Source: Psychromonas sp. Urea-02u-13
GTDB lineage: Bacteria; Pseudomonadota; Gammaproteobacteria; Enterobacterales; Psychromonadaceae
Direction of reading: 5' to 3'
DNA length: 64,000 nucleotides
Assembly: GCF_002835995.1 (NCBI RefSeq)
Contig: NZ_PJBZ01000040.1
Coordinates: forward strand, 62,001-126,000
Part shown: positions 2,485 through 62,696 of the stretch, in pieces
How the letters are laid out: the number at the start of each line of letters is the position of its first letter
How positions within the stretch are numbered: the first letter of the stretch is position 1
Notes under the pieces: model-generated
Databases searched by the model: none
The model's input: only the letters and a program-made list of their open reading frames with translations
What the model was told of the DNA's origin: nothing
Made by a program: the position numbers and the translations under genes

Positions 2485-3945
2485 CTAGCCGTAATGTCTT
2501 GCTTTATATTTAGGGTGCATTAAATTTTCTATTGAAAAAATCTCATCCAATTGTTCTTCGCTTAACAGGCCTCGTTCAAGAACGACTTCTCGGACATTTT
2601 TACCCGTTTCAGCACAAATTTTACCGACGATATCTCCTTCATGATGACCAATTAATGGGTTTAAATAAGTGACGATACCGATTGAATTAAAGACATATTG
2701 TTCACAAACCTCTTTATTGACAGTAATACCAATAATGCATTTATCAGTTAGATTTATGCACGCATTATTAAGTAATGAAATAGATTCAAATAATGCTTGT
2801 CCAATGACTGGCTCCATCACATTAAGTTGTAATTGGCCTGCTTCAGAAGCAAAGGTAATTGTGGTGTCATTACCAATCACTTTAAAGCAAACTTGGTTTA
2901 CTACTTCTGGGATTACTGGGTTTACTTTAGCTGGCATGATAGAAGAGCCGGCTTGTAATTGAGGTAAATTAAGCTCATTAAATCCAGTGCGAGGACCAGA
3001 CGAAAGTAAACGTAAATCATTACATATTTTAGATAGTTTAATGGCAGTACGTTTAAGCGAACTATGCACCATGACATACGCGCCACAATCTGATGTTGCT
3101 TCAATAAGATCTTCGGCAGGTGTACAGGCTAATCCAGTGATATCAGCAAGGTATTTAACTGCTAGTGGTTGATAACCTTCGGGGGTATTTAGTGCTGTTC
3201 CAATAGCAGTCGCACCTAAATTAATTTCAAGCAATAAATTAGCGGTATAGTGAATGTTTTTAATTTCTTCTTTAATAGAAGTGGAAAATGCATGAAACTC
3301 TTGGCCTACTGTCATTGGCACTGCATCTTGAAGTTGGGTACGGCTCATTTTTAAGATATCAGCAAACTCCAGGCCTTTCGCCTCAAGCGCTTTTCTAAGG
3401 TAATCAAGCGATTCAACCATGCTCATTAAACTATTATAAACAGCGATACGAAAACCTGTTGGATAAGCATCGTTGGTAGATTGGCTTTTATTAACATGAT
3501 CGTTGGGATTGATAATGTTGTATTCGCCTTTTTGTTTACCCATTAATTCAAGCGCTAGATTAGCAATAACTTCATTGGTGTTCATATTAACGGATGTACC
3601 TGCGCCACCTTGATATACGTCAGATGGAAATTGATCCATGCATTTACCCGTATTAAGCATCACGTCACAAGCTTGAATAATATATTGGGCAATTTTTGAA
3701 GGAATAGAGCCTAAGTCTTTATTTGCCATTGCAGCTGCTTTTTTAGTAAAGACCATGCCACGTATAAATTCTGGGACATCTGAAATTGTGTGCTTAGATA
3801 TATTGAAGTTTTCGATAGCACGAAGAGTATGAATTCCCCAGTAAGCATCGGCTGGTATTTGACGTTTACCAAGCAAATCTTCTTCAGTACGAGTTGTAAT
3901 GTTTAACGTAGTTTCATTTTGTTCTAGGTAAGTTGTTTGAGACAT
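2485..3945 (-). CDS. aspA: Aspartate ammonia-lyase (aspartase)
   Basis: This cytoplasmic enzyme reversibly converts L-aspartate to fumarate and ammonia, feeding fumarate respiration when oxygen is absent. The protein is 486 residues (E. coli 478). The fumarase/aspartase superfamily signature [11 protein letters not shown] is at residues 333-343 and contains the catalytic serine loop. The N-terminal segment [21 protein letters not shown] and the motif [11 protein letters not shown] near residue 155 are aspartase-like. The continuation after the signature, [15 protein letters not shown], favours aspartase over class II fumarase. It is the first gene of an apparent aspA-dcuA operon. A short palindrome lies just upstream of the start. 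Confidence 0.95.
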
Positions 3946-3963
3946 AACAAAGCCTTAATGAAA

Positions 3964-3986
3964 AATTTTTATTAACAATAAAAATT
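3964..3986. promoter_or_regulatory. AT-rich palindrome immediately upstream of aspA
   Basis: AATTTTTATT and AATAAAAATT form a perfect 10-bp inverted repeat around a 3-base spacer, starting 19 bases upstream of the aspA start codon. It could be an operator or an mRNA 5' hairpin near the ribosome-binding site. It does not match the FNR (TTGAT-N4-ATCAA) or CRP consensus, so the regulator is unknown. Confidence 0.35.
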
Positions 3987-4130
3987 AGGATATTGATCCT
4001 GCTATTGTAAAGAATCCATTCGTAAGCATGAGCTAGAAATGCACTCCAAATGCATCATCGAATTAACTGTAGATTCCTCCCTATTTAGAGGTGATTCTAT
4101 AATCAAGATCAAGTTACTGAGTAAAGTAGG

Positions 4131-5400: not shown

Positions 5401-6137
5401 GTGCTTAGCCTTATCGAACCAACAACATTATTATTAGCTTCTGTCATCATATTTTTTGGATCTTTGACTCAAGGGCTCATCGGTTTTGGTCTGGCCGTGG
5501 TCGCGGCTCCTTTTCTTTATATTCTTGATCCGCGACTTGTTCCTGTTCCCATCATACTAATGGGGCTTTCAATTTCATTATTAACCTTACTTAGGGAACG
5601 TAAAGAGTTGAAATTTAATGGGATGCAATATGCTTTATTAGGCCGAATTCCAGGTGGGTTTATTGGTGTCGGATTGTTATTGATAGCCCCACAACCGATA
5701 CTCGGGCTGGTTATTGCAAGTATTGTTGGTTTAACTGTCATGCTCAGCGTACTAAAATTCAATATCAATATTAATCGCTTAAATTTATTTATCGCAGGTA
5801 TATTATCTGGCATATTCGGTAATATTGCGGCTATATAGGCGGTCCACCGATTGCGATTCTGTTAGCGGGTAAAGAAGCTAATCAATTCCGTGCGACACTT
5901 TCTGCCTTTTTTATTTTTAGCTCTCTGATTTCTCTTGCGATTTTAGCCATCGCGGGATTTGTAAATATGAATCAATTATTACTTTCTATTATGTTGCTCC
6001 CTGCTCTGTTTCTGGGCTATCTAGTTTCCAGTAAGTTAGTGCATCGCATTGATAAGAAGCAGATAAAAAGCTTAACCTTGGTACTCTGTACTGCGAGTGC
6101 ATTAACCTTGGCGGTAAAATCTATCGTTGAACTTTAA
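5401..6137 (+). pseudogene. TauE/SafE family exporter, disrupted by a TA-dinucleotide frameshift
   Basis: The first frame (5401-5838, GTG start) encodes an N-terminal half typical of TauE/SafE (DUF81) anion exporters: a membrane segment with GSLTQGLIGFGLAVVAAPFL, then several more hydrophobic helices. It stops at a TAG within GCTATATAGGC. Removing one TA from the (TA)3 run restores AAIGGPPIAILLAGKEANQF, the family's second-half hallmark GGPP, and the frame then runs to a stop at 6135-6137. Rejoined length is about 245 residues, normal for the family. As it stands the gene is broken. A sequencing slip or reversible slippage at the TA run are alternatives. Confidence 0.8.
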
Positions 6138-6171
6138 ATCGGAGAAGGAAGCAATCGAGAAGCAATCAAGG

Positions 6172-6240
6172 GCATCCCTTTTTTGATTCTGTGATAATTT
6201 GAAGCTCAGTCAAAAAGAGTCGGGTGTCCTCGATTGGAGC
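6172..6240. repeat. Dispersed repeat D, copy 3
   Basis: The sequence CATCCCTTTTTTGATTCTGTG through CAGTCAAAAAGAGTCGGGTG and CGATTGG matches 4131-4230 (with a deletion) and 4438-4482. It lies between the TauE/SafE pseudogene and the complete ompV gene. Confidence 0.6.
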
Positions 6241-6393
6241 TCTTTTTTCTTTTCTTTTAAAAGCTCTGGGTTATCCGATTTTTCCACAAAATAATAAACT
6301 GCCAATCTAAAATCCCAAAAACAATTTAATCCATCGTGCAATTTGTTATCGCTAAAACCGTTCTCTTTTAAATAATAATTAGGAGAGTAACAA

Positions 6394-7128
6394 ATGAAAT
6401 GTAAACAATGGATTGGCTTAATAATTAGTACGGTAGCGGTAACGTCTTTTCAAGCAACAGCACAAGAACAGTATTACGACTTTGGTTTTGTTGGTCTTGA
6501 TGGAAAATATAGCCAGTCAGTCTTCACAGAAGAGCAAGGCAGTTTTAGTGTCGTGCCGGATATATTCTATTACGGCGAGTATGGGTTTGTTGATGGTGGC
6601 CTTGTTAATGTTTCGGTATTGCCTTATTTAGGTATTTCAGGACAATGGCGATTCGCTGAAGTATCGAATGACGTAGACTCACTTCCTAGTGGCATCGAAG
6701 ACCGTGATGGTAATGGTGAATTAGGGATAACACTAGGCACTGTTGGTGCGCGGTTAACTTATTTACACGATGTAACAAATGTTCATGATGGTTACGAATT
6801 ACAGCTCCATTTAGGTTATAAATTTGACACGCCATTAACAGGCTTTACGCTAACGCCTATCGCAGAAGTTGACTACAGAGATAAGCATTTATCACAGCAT
6901 CTTTATAATGTTTCAGCAACCGAGTCAATCGCATCAGGGTTGAATGAATTTGAAGCTGATGGTTCTTTTGTTTATAAAGCTGGCCTAGTAGGAATTTACT
7001 CATTCACGCCTAAGTGGTTAGGTTTAATTAAATTAGATGTGGAACATCATGATAGCGATAGTTCACTTATACAACGAGACCTCGCTTGGGGATTAAGTTT
7101 AGGTGTCACTTATAAATTCACAAATTAA
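6394..7128 (+). CDS. MipA/OmpV family outer membrane protein, complete copy
   Basis: The 244-residue protein has a Sec signal peptide: MKCKQ, a hydrophobic core of about 15 residues, and a cleavage site after TAQ-like text near residue 24. It is followed by amphipathic beta strands with many Gly/Tyr/Asp turns, ending GVTYKF plus TN. This fits an MipA/OmpV outer-membrane barrel. The start ATG has AGGAG 8 bases upstream (TTAGGAGAGTAACAA). It is almost identical to the truncated gene at 2-637, with very similar DNA up to the stop codon and for about 30 bases beyond, after which the flanks share only repeat A. Function within the family (murein-enzyme scaffold, porin-like uptake, polymyxin or osmotic response) is not decidable here. 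Confidence 0.85.
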   Translation: MKCKQWIGLIISTVAVTSFQATAQEQYYDFGFVGLDGKYSQSVFTEEQGSFSVVPDIFYYGEYGFVDGGLVNVSVLPYLGISGQWRFAEVSNDVDSLPSGIEDRDGNGELGITLGTVGARLTYLHDVTNVHDGYELQLHLGYKFDTPLTGFTLTPIAEVDYRDKHLSQHLYNVSATESIASGLNEFEADGSFVYKAGLVGIYSFTPKWLGLIKLDVEHHDSDSSLIQRDLAWGLSLGVTYKFTN

Positions 7129-7149
7129 TCAACTAACTAGGATTAACTT

Positions 7150-7312
7150 AAAGGCGGTATAAATAAAAAACACATCAGTGCTTAGCCTGCTTATGCCTCT
7201 TATCTTTTGCTAAAGTTGTTACTCACCTAAGAAAAAGATATAGGGGGTCTGTGTTGTCACATTGATTCCGTATACCGGTATTCGCAGGGGAGGGAACCTA
7301 CCTTTTGGGGTT
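7150..7312. repeat. Dispersed repeat A, partial copy 2
   Basis: The sequence CAGTGCTTAGCCTGCTTATG, then TTTTGCTAAAGTTGTTACTC and TTGATTCCGTATACC, parallels 690-820 and 7455-7590. It directly follows the complete ompV gene and is degraded relative to the other copies. Confidence 0.55.
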
Positions 7313-8433: not shown

Positions 8434-9081
8434 CTATTTTTTTAACGGCAAAGCATAAGGTCCATTAGGTAAAGATGTAGCTGCATCGATATGAAAAACT
8501 TGCTGATTGGCTGCATTTGTTAAAGGCATATAATCAGGAGCCGCTCGATTTATTGCTGACGTAATCAACATACTAATCAGATCAACAAGCGCATTGCCTG
8601 ACGAACCACTATCTGGCGTATAAGCCATGGCTTTCGTTGCCTTCCAAATTGTTTCACCCTCTTTATTTCTAAATTCATAAGAAAAGTTAATATTCGTTGT
8701 ACTAGACAAAACTAAATACGTGGTGTCCCAAGTATTAATCGTAACGTAAAGCACAACATCAGCACCAAACATATCCGCTAGCTGATTAGTTGGTAGGTTT
8801 TGGATTTGATATGGTTCATAAAGTCCTTCATATTCAAGAACAGTTTTTACCGTATAAGACGGGAATACGTAGTACCCTTTCTCTGCCAATAACACTGGCA
8901 ATGAACTATATACAGCTAAAGGGGCTTGCACATCTACGCTGTGATTAACAACAGGCAGTACGAGTATAGATGTAGGGCTATGCTCTGTAAATCTCATGTC
9001 TTTAGCGATAGGCTTAGTTGTTTGACAAGCGCTCAGCACGAATGGAATAATAAATATTAGTGTTAGCTTAAAAAATCTCAT
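8434..9081 (-). CDS. DUF799 / GNA1162-like lipoprotein
   Basis: The 215-residue protein begins with a lipoprotein signal ending FVLSAC, with the lipidated Cys at 19, so it is predicted to be membrane-anchored and periplasm-facing. The body matches the DUF799 (GNA1162) family, with text such as SILVLPVVNHS near residue 40, LAEKGYYVFP near 88 and MFGADVVLYVTINTW near 125. The family has a nucleoside-hydrolase/TolB-N-like alpha/beta fold related to CsgG-type domains, and its biochemical role is unknown. It is the last gene of a four-lipoprotein operon. Its ATG overlaps the stop of the upstream DUF4810 gene by one base (TAATG), which predicts translational coupling. Confidence 0.85.
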   Translation of the reverse strand: MRFFKLTLIFIIPFVLSACQTTKPIAKDMRFTEHSPTSILVLPVVNHSVDVQAPLAVYSSLPVLLAEKGYYVFPSYTVKTVLEYEGLYEPYQIQNLPTNQLADMFGADVVLYVTINTWDTTYLVLSSTTNINFSYEFRNKEGETIWKATKAMAYTPDSGSSGNALVDLISMLITSAINRAAPDYMPLTNAANQQVFHIDAATSLPNGPYALPLKK

Positions 9082-9449
9082 TATTTATCTTCCTTTGGTA
9101 ATTGAAGCTTAAGATTATCCACAAGCGCTTGCATTAAAAATTTACTCTCAGACCAAGCGTTTGATTCCTTATTGTAAAACTCTATCGCTTTAGGTATATC
9201 GCCTGTCTGCAAAGCAAAAGTACCAACTTCAGCATAAAGCCCTGGTGCGGGCTTTTTGTCACTTTTCTCAATTTCTTTTAGATGCGCCTCTAGAATGGCT
9301 GGAAACTCAGCCGCACCAACAGGATCATAATAATATTCATACAAATCACTCTGATATCCACCCCAGCTATAAAGTGAATTTTTTGTTGTCTGACAACCAG
9401 ACAACAAAAAAGGTAATGTGAGGATAAAAATAATCATTATTTTTTTCAT
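9081..9449 (-). CDS. DUF4810 lipoprotein
   Basis: The 122-residue protein has a signal ending FLLSGC (lipidated Cys 19), then SLYSWGGYQSDLYEYYYDP, the recognisable N-terminal motif of DUF4810 proteins. The remainder is helical with a TPR-like pair (GLYAEVGTFALQTGDIPKAIEFYNKES near residues 70-96). It overlaps the preceding gene by 4 bases (ATGA) and the following gene by one base. The family is regularly found beside CsgG-like and DUF799 lipoproteins (from general knowledge), suggesting one envelope complex. Its function is unknown. Confidence 0.85.
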   Translation of the reverse strand: MKKIMIIFILTLPFLLSGCQTTKNSLYSWGGYQSDLYEYYYDPVGAAEFPAILEAHLKEIEKSDKKPAPGLYAEVGTFALQTGDIPKAIEFYNKESNAWSESKFLMQALVDNLKLQLPKEDK

Positions 9450-9766
9450 TTGATGATGATCTCCTTAGTTACGCCATCACCAAGGTATATTTTTCGAGAT
9501 GAAATTAATTCATTATTTTTATATATTTCAATAAGATGCGTTCCAGAAAGAACTCTCAATGCTTCATTTGTATCTGTGTAAGGGGCAATAGAGCCATTAT
9601 CCAAATTATCGATAGAGACAGAGTAATTTGAAACATTACTCTCACCAGTAATGCTAAATGTTAGTTGCGGTCTATTATCGACAGTCTTACTCTCTAACGT
9701 CGGCATTTGAACACACCCGGCCAGAACAAAGGCATAAAAATAAAGCATAATAAATTTAGTTTTCAT
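9446..9766 (-). CDS. Small lipoprotein in the CsgG operon, family not recognised
   Basis: The 106-residue protein has a lipoprotein signal ending FVLAGC (Cys 18). The mature part of about 88 residues is mostly beta-strand in character: QLTFSITGESNVSNYSVSID, then a Gly/His turn (LSGTHLIEIYKNNELISSRK) and a C-terminal TKEIIIK. The last half resembles a PEGA- or carboxypeptidase-regulatory-like beta sandwich, but this is only a shape impression. It overlaps the downstream DUF4810 gene by 4 bases (ATGA), and its start overlaps the CsgG stop by one base. It is therefore clearly part of the operon even though the family is unknown to me. Confidence 0.75.
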   Translation of the reverse strand: MKTKFIMLYFYAFVLAGCVQMPTLESKTVDNRPQLTFSITGESNVSNYSVSIDNLDNGSIAPYTDTNEALRVLSGTHLIEIYKNNELISSRKIYLGDGVTKEIIIK

Positions 9767-10731
9767 TATTTTTTCTCCAAAACATTAAGTTCGTTAAATT
9801 TATAATTATCAATAGAGCCACTTACGATTGATGCGACAGCACCTTCATTACTCTCGTTGTCACCAAACAACTGAAGTATTTTGATACTAGCCACTTCTTT
9901 ACCAGGAAGAGTAATCACAAACCCTGTTTGCTTAGACTTTATTTCCTTACCCTGAGTCTCAACATTAAATACCATGCCTTCTCTTATACCCTGAGATTTA
10001 CCCCCACTGATATAAATGACACCATCTTCAACCGTTAAAATATCGGTTTTCCAAGGGCGGGTTTGCATTTCTTGAGTCAGTTTATTGATTGCATCTGAAA
10101 TCGCGTTGGAGATGGCTAAATCATTAAGCGTTCCGTCATATCCTGCTTTAGATCCGAAACCAGCTACAGACTCTGATTCAGAGCTAGACTCCCCCGCACC
10201 TGATAAAGAGTAGTAAACGAGTCCTGTTTTTGTATCGACTAAACGAAGATCAACTTTTGCATGGGCAACTTGTTTTTTTGTAGAGGAAAGAAATCCACTT
10301 TCACCCTCTGTTTTTCTCCCAAATTCAGTAAGTGAACCAATTATTAATGTATCAACACCAACCAAATTTGTTTCCTCGCCTGTGAGCTTTGCTTCATCTT
10401 GAAGGCGAGCAATATCTGGTCTCTCAAAAACCATATACTGACCTGATTGAGTTAAAGACTTAGACAGCATGTCAGTCACTTGCTTGCCCAAAACATCTCC
10501 CTTAGCATCGCGAAGGAGACTTTTACCGTATGTTGTCTCATTTGTAATTCGGCCTAATGCTACTTTTCGCTTCAGTGTGGGAGCTACAACAAGTTCCAAT
10601 GCCGCTTTTTGGGCTGTAGCTTGTGCCTCTTGAGAGTGTTCGCCTTCAACACCTTTCATTTGAGGAGATTGTGTTGCGCATCCCAACATCGCCGTAGATA
10701 AAATTGAAACAGCTATTAATTTATACTTCAT
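9766..10731 (-). CDS. CsgG-family lipoprotein, first gene of a four-lipoprotein operon
   Basis: The 321-residue protein has a lipoprotein signal ending AMLGC (Cys 18). Residues about 50-215 match the CsgG/HfaB fold: VALGRITNETTYGKSLL, LSKSLTQSGQYMVFERPDI and VDTLIIGSLTEFGRK, followed by VAHAKVDLRLVDTKTG. In curli systems CsgG forms the outer-membrane secretion pore. Here a Ser/Gly-rich segment (SGAGESSSESESVAGFGSKA, around residues 180-200) sits where the pore-forming hairpins lie in CsgG, and an extra C-terminal domain of about 90 residues follows. No csgA/B/E/F-like gene is nearby. All three following genes are coupled lipoproteins, so a distinct envelope complex is more likely than curli export. 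Confidence 0.85.
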   Translation of the reverse strand: MKYKLIAVSILSTAMLGCATQSPQMKGVEGEHSQEAQATAQKAALELVVAPTLKRKVALGRITNETTYGKSLLRDAKGDVLGKQVTDMLSKSLTQSGQYMVFERPDIARLQDEAKLTGEETNLVGVDTLIIGSLTEFGRKTEGESGFLSSTKKQVAHAKVDLRLVDTKTGLVYYSLSGAGESSSESESVAGFGSKAGYDGTLNDLAISNAISDAINKLTQEMQTRPWKTDILTVEDGVIYISGGKSQGIREGMVFNVETQGKEIKSKQTGFVITLPGKEVASIKILQLFGDNESNEGAVASIVSGSIDNYKFNELNVLEKK

Positions 10732-61226: not shown

Positions 61227-62696
61227 ATGTTACCAGTGATCGCCTTAGTAGGTCGTCCAAATGTGGGTAAATCCACATTATTTAACCGTTTAACACGCAC
61301 ACGTGATGCGCTTGTTGCGGATTTTCCAGGTCTCACACGTGACCGTAAATATGGACAAGCAAAAATCGATGAAGATGAATTTATCGTTATCGATACAGGT
61401 GGTATTACTGGTGATGAAGAAGGCTTAGACGCTGTAATGGCTGAGCAGTCTTTGATGGCTATTGATGAAGCTGATGCCGTTTTATTTATGGTTGATGCCC
61501 GCGTAGGTATGATGGTTGCTGACCAAGCAATTGCTGATCATCTACGTAAACAAGAAAAGAAAGTTTTCATTGTTGCTAATAAAACCGATGGTATTGATGC
61601 CGATTCAGCTTGTGCTGAATTTTACGGTTTAGGATTAGGCGAAGTTTATCATATCGCAGCTGCACACGGTAAAGGTGTGCGCCAAATGATAGATACAGCA
61701 TTAGATGGTTTCTTTGAAGCACCTGTTGAAGGTGAACTTGATGACGAAGAATTCTTCGCACAAGATGAATACATCGAAGATGATGAAGAAAAACTATTAA
61801 AAGAGCAGGAACGTCTTGCTGCTATGCCAATTAAATTGGCTATTATCGGTAAACCAAACGTAGGTAAATCAACACTAATTAACCGTATTTTAGGTGAAGA
61901 ACGTGTTGTTGTATTTGACCAACCTGGCACAACGCGTGACAGTATCTACATTCCGATGACACGTGATGAAAGAGAATATATCTTAATCGATACGGCGGGT
62001 GTTCGTAAGCGTAAAAAAGTGAATGAAACTATCGAGAAATTCTCGGTAATTAAAACACTACAAGCGATCGAAGACGCTAATACCGTATTATTGGTTATCG
62101 ATGCACGTGATGGTATTGCAGAGCAAGATTTGTGTTTATTAGGTTATACCCTAAACGCAGGTCGCTCATTAGTAATTGCAGTGAACAAATGGGATGGCAT
62201 GACTGATTACGATAAAGAGCGTGTTAAAAGCGAACTTGATCGTCGTCTTGGTTTCATCGACTTTGCTAAAATTCACTTTATCTCTGCATTACACGGTACG
62301 GGTGTTGGTCATCTTTATGAGTCTATTGAAGAAGCATACGACTCATCAACTAAGCGTATTTCAACGTCTATGCTAACGCGTATTATGACCATGGCAACAG
62401 ATGATCATAATCCACCTATGGTACAAAGTCGTCGTGTTAAATTACGTTATGCACATGCCGGTGGTTACAATCCACCATTGATCGTAATTCATGGTAACCA
62501 AGTTAAAAAGCTACCACATTCTTACAAGCGTTACTTGATGAACTATTTCCGTCGTTCTCTTAAAATTATGGGCACACCTATCAGAATCGAATTCCGTGAA
62601 GGTAGTAACCCGTTTGAAGGTCGTCGTCAAAAACTGACACCAAACCAACTGCACAAACGTAAGCGTATGATGAGCCACCATACTAAGAAAAAATAA
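61227..62696 (+). CDS. der: Ribosome biogenesis GTPase Der (EngA)
   Basis: This essential GTPase with two tandem G domains takes part in 50S subunit assembly. The 489-residue protein has G1 motifs at GRPNVGKST (residues 9-17) and GKPNVGKST (near 211). G3 motifs DTGG and DTAGVRKR and G4 motifs NKTD and NKWD are readable in each domain. An acidic linker ([20 protein letters not shown]) separates the domains. A C-terminal KH-like domain ([20 protein letters not shown]) precedes a basic tail ([14 protein letters not shown]) that contacts rRNA. It is followed after 12 bases by the zinc-ribbon gene yfgJ. Confidence 0.97.

Follow-up and report, generated by a model that had tools for sequence, protein, structure and literature searches.

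Among the closest described systems to the locus reported here is the Neisseria operon NMB1164-1162, three adjoining genes that we take to encode lipoproteins of the CsgG, DUF4810 and GNA1162 (DUF799) families, respectively. A meningococcal table has DUF799, unnamed and CsgG genes in a row (PMC5282872). NMB1164 and NMB1163 are listed as vesicle lipoproteins and GNA1162 is among the top antibody targets in Neisseria outer membrane vesicles (both PMC10097807), while a biofilm transcription table for Haemophilus parasuis lists NMB1162- and NMB1164-like genes (PMC4245831). Although this unit of three genes is common, and outer membrane vesicle lists include two Neisseria members of it, the open-licence papers searched gave us no function for it, and no description of the four-gene type. 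We describe such a four-gene operon from Psychromonas sp. Urea-02u-13, in a 64,000-nucleotide stretch (the window; positions 62,001 to 126,000 of contig NZ_PJBZ01000040.1). Added here to the known three-gene unit are an FlgT_C-like domain on the CsgG-like protein, a small PEGA/transthyretin-like lipoprotein, and the joint occurrence of the two.

The operon is a minus-strand quartet of open reading frames (ORFs) at 10731-8434 of the window. It holds the same three adjoining lipoprotein genes, and is unlike the Neisseria type in having a fourth gene and a C-terminal tail of 93 residues on the CsgG-like protein. In transcript order, the genes encode a long-type CsgG-like lipoprotein (321 residues, 9766..10731; PF03783, E 8.2e-35, 120.5 bits against a cut-off of 20.8), the small lipoprotein (106 residues, 9446..9766; no Pfam family above cut-off), a DUF4810 lipoprotein (122 residues, 9081..9449; PF16068, E 2.3e-20) and a GNA1162/DUF799 lipoprotein (215 residues, 8434..9081; PF05643, E 2.5e-36). 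Neighbouring genes overlap by 1, 4 and 1 bases, and each product has a lipobox cysteine, at residues 18, 18, 19 and 19. A first-pass annotation, made from the letters alone, had proposed four overlapping lipoprotein genes with lipoboxes, and its boundaries hold; the small gene, which it placed fourth, is second in the transcript. The window protein was the only CsgG-domain match in a profile search of the host genome. The GNA1162 protein has a fold related to the CsgG domain and matched PDB 4hrv (E 2.8e-20), a structure that also matched the CsgG-like model (E 2.9e-7). FlgO was rejected as a relative of either protein, as its matches span signal peptides only. The DUF4810 protein weakly resembles BamD (E 0.004), far below the BamD family cut-off.

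Conservation of the unit was scored in 299 genomes of the phylum (25 with a DUF4810 match) and 394 of the order (72 with a match). These gave 90 distinct genomes with a match, of which 88 were scored after dropping G610 (a false DUF4810 match, no operon) and G621 (CsgG gene cut by a contig end). The CsgG-like, DUF4810 and GNA1162 genes adjoined on one strand in 88/88. The possibility raised in the first-pass annotation, that the homologues occur mostly apart, is therefore not what we observed. Three genomes of one family (f83; L123, L124 and L125) had the order GNA1162-DUF4810-CsgG, with the genes still together; these f83 units are divergent, and their GNA1162 frames are larger (~330 residues). 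The operons fell into two types. In the short type (68/88 genomes), the CsgG-like protein stops no more than 11 residues past the CsgG domain and we found no small gene. In the long type (20/88), it has ~90 extra residues and the small gene comes next in 20/20. Junctions in long-type loci were overlapping in 45/88, 30/89 and 56/91 scored cases and more than 30 bases apart in only 4, 6 and 1, with starts that were called by rule and are approximate (no start was called at 4, 1 and 4 junctions). The unit is more than a chance arrangement: it is one conserved, tightly packed operon, as the first-pass annotation had supposed.

In the loci examined, the FlgT_C-like domain and the small gene were either both present or both absent, with a single exception. 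The small gene was present in all 20 long-type genomes of the sample and in none of the 68 short-type genomes. It also lay behind the long CsgG-like gene in 79/80 named loci (a contig end cuts 2), which are biased towards likeness with the long protein because the best 80 of 572 relatives from the scan with that protein were kept. In the exception, L155, a transposase pair (IS3-like by eye, ~5963-7153) sits directly behind the CsgG stop and there is no small gene. Weak small-protein matches in three short-type operons (E ~1e-3) fall inside the DUF4810 frame and were left uncounted. In the short-type genome G407 the gap between domains is longer than usual (401 nt), and no lipoprotein ORF was seen in it. 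In G301 (L108), a frameshift in the long CsgG-like gene puts the C-terminal domain into another frame; the frames of the small protein, DUF4810 and GNA1162 are all open.

The small protein was modelled by AlphaFold2 (m63923ff981c6) with a mean predicted local distance difference test score of 92.7, as a β-sandwich with a PEGA/transthyretin-like fold. PF08308 (PEGA) matched 10/52 members of the small family at E up to 0.1 (best 6.9e-5), the window protein not among them, and a sequence comparison of the family with solved structures gave nothing credible. Cj0090 of Campylobacter, which has an Ig-like fold, was not among the 50 structure matches listed for the small protein; this excludes nothing.

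In the CsgG-like protein, residues 50-230 form a CsgG/TolB-N-like domain with shortened hairpin segments, and residues ~228-321 form the FlgT_C-like domain. The best structural match was FlgT, of which both the middle and the C-terminal domains are present. Both FlgT structure matches begin at FlgT residue 88; before its first domain the query has only a signal peptide and linker, and the N-terminal FlgT domain was not found by structure comparison. The extra C-terminal domain of the first-pass annotation is thus real and FlgT_C-like, and the protein is, as it had said, not a plain CsgG, the label (CsgG/HfaB family, a curli pore) under which database records file it, with the small gene as a hypothetical protein. 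In contrast, its Ser/Gly-rich insertion at the pore hairpins is not an insertion but a shorter replacement, because both hairpin-equivalent segments are shorter than in E. coli CsgG (28 versus 34 and 34 versus 41 residues, that is 6 and 7 shorter, counted between hand-chosen anchors). These lengths are constant across 46 members of the family. The segments are low-confidence loops in the predicted model, and they do not have the alternating hydrophobic face of the amphipathic barrel hairpins in E. coli CsgG (best-face values of 0.32 and 1.40 here, compared to 2.10 and 2.54 there).

How did the two types arise and spread? A quick tree of the GNA1162 and DUF4810 domains (115 rows, from 89 sample genomes and 26 of 76 usable named loci; G621 was carried, labelled short, and some long branches were flagged) needs one change of type (support 87), compared to 36 in shuffles. 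The C-terminal domain and the small gene were therefore gained or lost together once, and the loci attest long co-retention of the two rather than independent events. Long types occurred in records named Gamma-, Beta- and Alphaproteobacteria, Myxococcota, Kiritimatiellales, Verrucomicrobia and Nitrospira, plus Prevotella, where the taxon labels of metagenome bins may be wrong. Within the order, both types occurred in each of four families (f3, f7, f10 and f16), which suggests horizontal transfer of the operon. GNA1162 was not found in any of the 23 remaining genomes from the host genus (3 of them <90% complete), and a search of host-genus DNA for an insertion site returned mostly short chemoreceptor segments. 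The closest long proteins, among the best 80 of 572, were from Shewanella chilikensis (78%), S. indica (77%), a Cellvibrionaceae isolate (72%) and Agarivorans (70%).

Two long-type operons sit on plasmids, of 144 and 135 kb. In a plasmid collection 13 records had a match and six were fetched: those from Polaromonas, Novosphingobium, Paraburkholderia and Prevotella were long with the small gene, and those from Comamonas and Neisseria gonorrhoeae were short without it. A tblastn search of this collection with the window small protein found Polaromonas only (E up to 0.01), and the other three long-type records were found by the family profile, more weakly in Novosphingobium (4e-9) and Prevotella (1.5e-7). 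L271 (6952-8892) is from plasmid pPNAP04, where genes of the VWA and TerD families and an IS5 transposase are found close to the operon. The N. gonorrhoeae record (L276) has its DUF4810 match divided between two overlapping frames (~3627-4003).

Asp at position +2 after the lipobox cysteine is the inner-membrane signal of enterobacteria. It was present in 1/379 scored proteins of long-type loci, and no lipobox was called in six matched proteins. The long CsgG-like protein of L101 (G324) has no lipobox cysteine and apparently an ordinary signal peptide.

As the likeliest reading, we propose that the four lipoproteins form an envelope complex, lipid-anchored to the outer membrane on its inner side. 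FlgT, PelC, PqiC and CsgG, whose folds are near that of the long protein, form rings. The long protein, perhaps with GNA1162, would use its CsgG/TolB-N-like fold to oligomerise into a collar or ring that stays in the periplasm and does not span the membrane. Projecting from this ring, the FlgT_C-like domain would dock the small lipoprotein as its dedicated partner, with DUF4810 as a putative adaptor. Such a complex may act like the Vibrio H ring, PelC or PqiC, bracing the envelope or receiving another envelope-spanning structure, and would be tied neither to flagella nor to curli. Taken as a whole, a lipid-anchored ring without its own pore and with the small lipoprotein docked on it is a proposition to which we give even odds. 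The four-gene variant offers a handle on the common system, since the close pairing of the C-terminal domain with the small lipoprotein predicts a direct contact between them, and the FlgT resemblance suggests a concrete structural hypothesis to replace the curli-pore label. More tentatively, and with the balance somewhat against it, the operon might represent a widespread non-flagellar H-ring-like machine, in which an FlgT-like lipoprotein ring at the outer membrane and a dedicated PEGA-like partner bound at its FlgT_C-like domain serve to brace an envelope structure or to gate it. The domain and the partner would have been acquired jointly, in a single event, by the simpler three-gene Neisseria-type system, and plasmids would account for part of the spread across phyla. 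If so, FlgT-type motor collars would be one branch of a more general periplasmic collar family.

Three other functions were weighed against the ring. Presence tests used 41 carrier handles, two of which (G550 and G661) are apparently one genome and some of which may be incomplete assemblies; neighbours were clustered from ORFs of at least 90 residues around 100 long-type and 37 short-type loci. No neighbour family outside the operon was recurrent: of the 100 long-type loci, the largest clusters took in 13 and 7, although a flagellar or other gene may sit beside individual operons. For a pore of the CsgG kind, exporting a substrate encoded elsewhere, we see no recurrent neighbour that might be the substrate. 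CsgF was found in 9/41 handles and not in the other 32, and the host genome has no match to it (the CsgE and curlin families were not searched), in keeping with the first pass, which had noted no CsgF nearby. Its suggestion of a different pore is made unlikely by the short, less hydrophobic hairpin segments; a curli pore is likewise judged unlikely on hairpin length, polarity and the missing CsgF, and overall we give the export reading little credence. Still less probable is an accessory role in the flagellar H ring, such as FlgT has. FlgT is indeed the best structural match and FlgI was found in 32/41 handles, but FlgI was not found in the other 9, among them four Polynucleobacter and Pontiella, and since the unit occurs in genomes without FlgI an obligate flagellar role was rejected. 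Moreover, the host encodes a separate FlgT and FlgO on the same contig as FlgI, the CsgG-like protein is missing the FlgT N-terminal domain, and no neighbour of any kind recurs beside the operon.

The strongest competitor, which we nevertheless regard as improbable, is a regulator of peptidoglycan synthesis or remodelling akin to LpoB, whose TolB-N-like domain would span the periplasm and activate a synthase or restrain hydrolases. Pfam LpoB (PF13036) matched 13/46 members of the CsgG-like family at E up to 0.5 (best 2e-4), and the window protein below cut-off (E 0.026, 14.8 bits against 22.3). Lipoprotein sets that are comparable by description occur in Campylobacter (Cj0089-0091) and Helicobacter (HP0018, as well as HP1457, which has been called homologous to LpoB); hypervesiculation followed the loss of HP0018, and AmiA and MltD co-precipitated with HP0018 (PMC11394524, PMC3100323). 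However, the fold is nearer to FlgT and CsgG, and UB2H, the domain of PBP1B on which LpoB docks, gave strong matches (E < 1e-15) in 19/41 handles and no strong match in the other 22. UB2H was above cut-off in 26/41, the weaker matches being mostly in frames of ~1150-1230 residues, apparently another protein. The partner might yet be a synthase that lacks a recognisable UB2H. As FlgI, CsgF and a strong UB2H match were each not found in some carriers, the unit can apparently do without flagella, CsgF and a PBP1B that bears UB2H.

The DUF4810 gene of the window carries, in its coding region at the lipobox, a 14-bp perfect inverted repeat (9379..9411, minus strand; -16.7 kcal/mol, z -5.7), one of the two longest perfect stems in the window (14 bp, loops of 3-8). 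The first-pass annotation took the coupling of the genes to imply equal-ratio synthesis, but this strong hairpin could even make expression unequal; a role as terminator is doubtful because no clean T-run follows it, and the stem had no counterpart in three close relatives (L147, L149 and L150). A promoter scan gave 10 sites, compared to 12.4 in shuffles. Elsewhere in the window, two MipA-like copies (320-637 and 6394-7128), near-identical by eye over their C-terminal 105 residues (the upstream part of the first copy lies outside the comparison), lie on either side of a block that includes ORFs resembling transporters and aspartase.

How does the operon compare with known systems? The Neisseria type shares three genes with the operon, arranged alike, as we saw in the N. 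gonorrhoeae stretch, but its CsgG-like protein has no FlgT_C-like domain and it has no small gene. The CsgG curli channel shares the domain fold, lipobox and N-terminal region, whereas its hairpin segments are longer and more hydrophobic and it lacks the extra C-terminal domain. PelC and PqiC match the CsgG-like domain only, and work with PelB and PqiAB, respectively, while the operon here has no such constant neighbour. TsaP, which is associated with the type IV pilus secretin, has a LysM domain, and we know of no CsgG domain in it. The C-terminal domain gave weak profile matches to LysM pilus-machine proteins (6ve2, E 0.007; 3jc8, named TsaP, E 0.017), values close to the E 0.019 that the same search gave for an unrelated CRISPR protein. 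FlgT of the Vibrio flagellar H ring (PDB 3w1e and 8z5n) is flagellar, carries an additional N-terminal domain and, by eye in relatives, has no lipobox, unlike the CsgG-like family described here.
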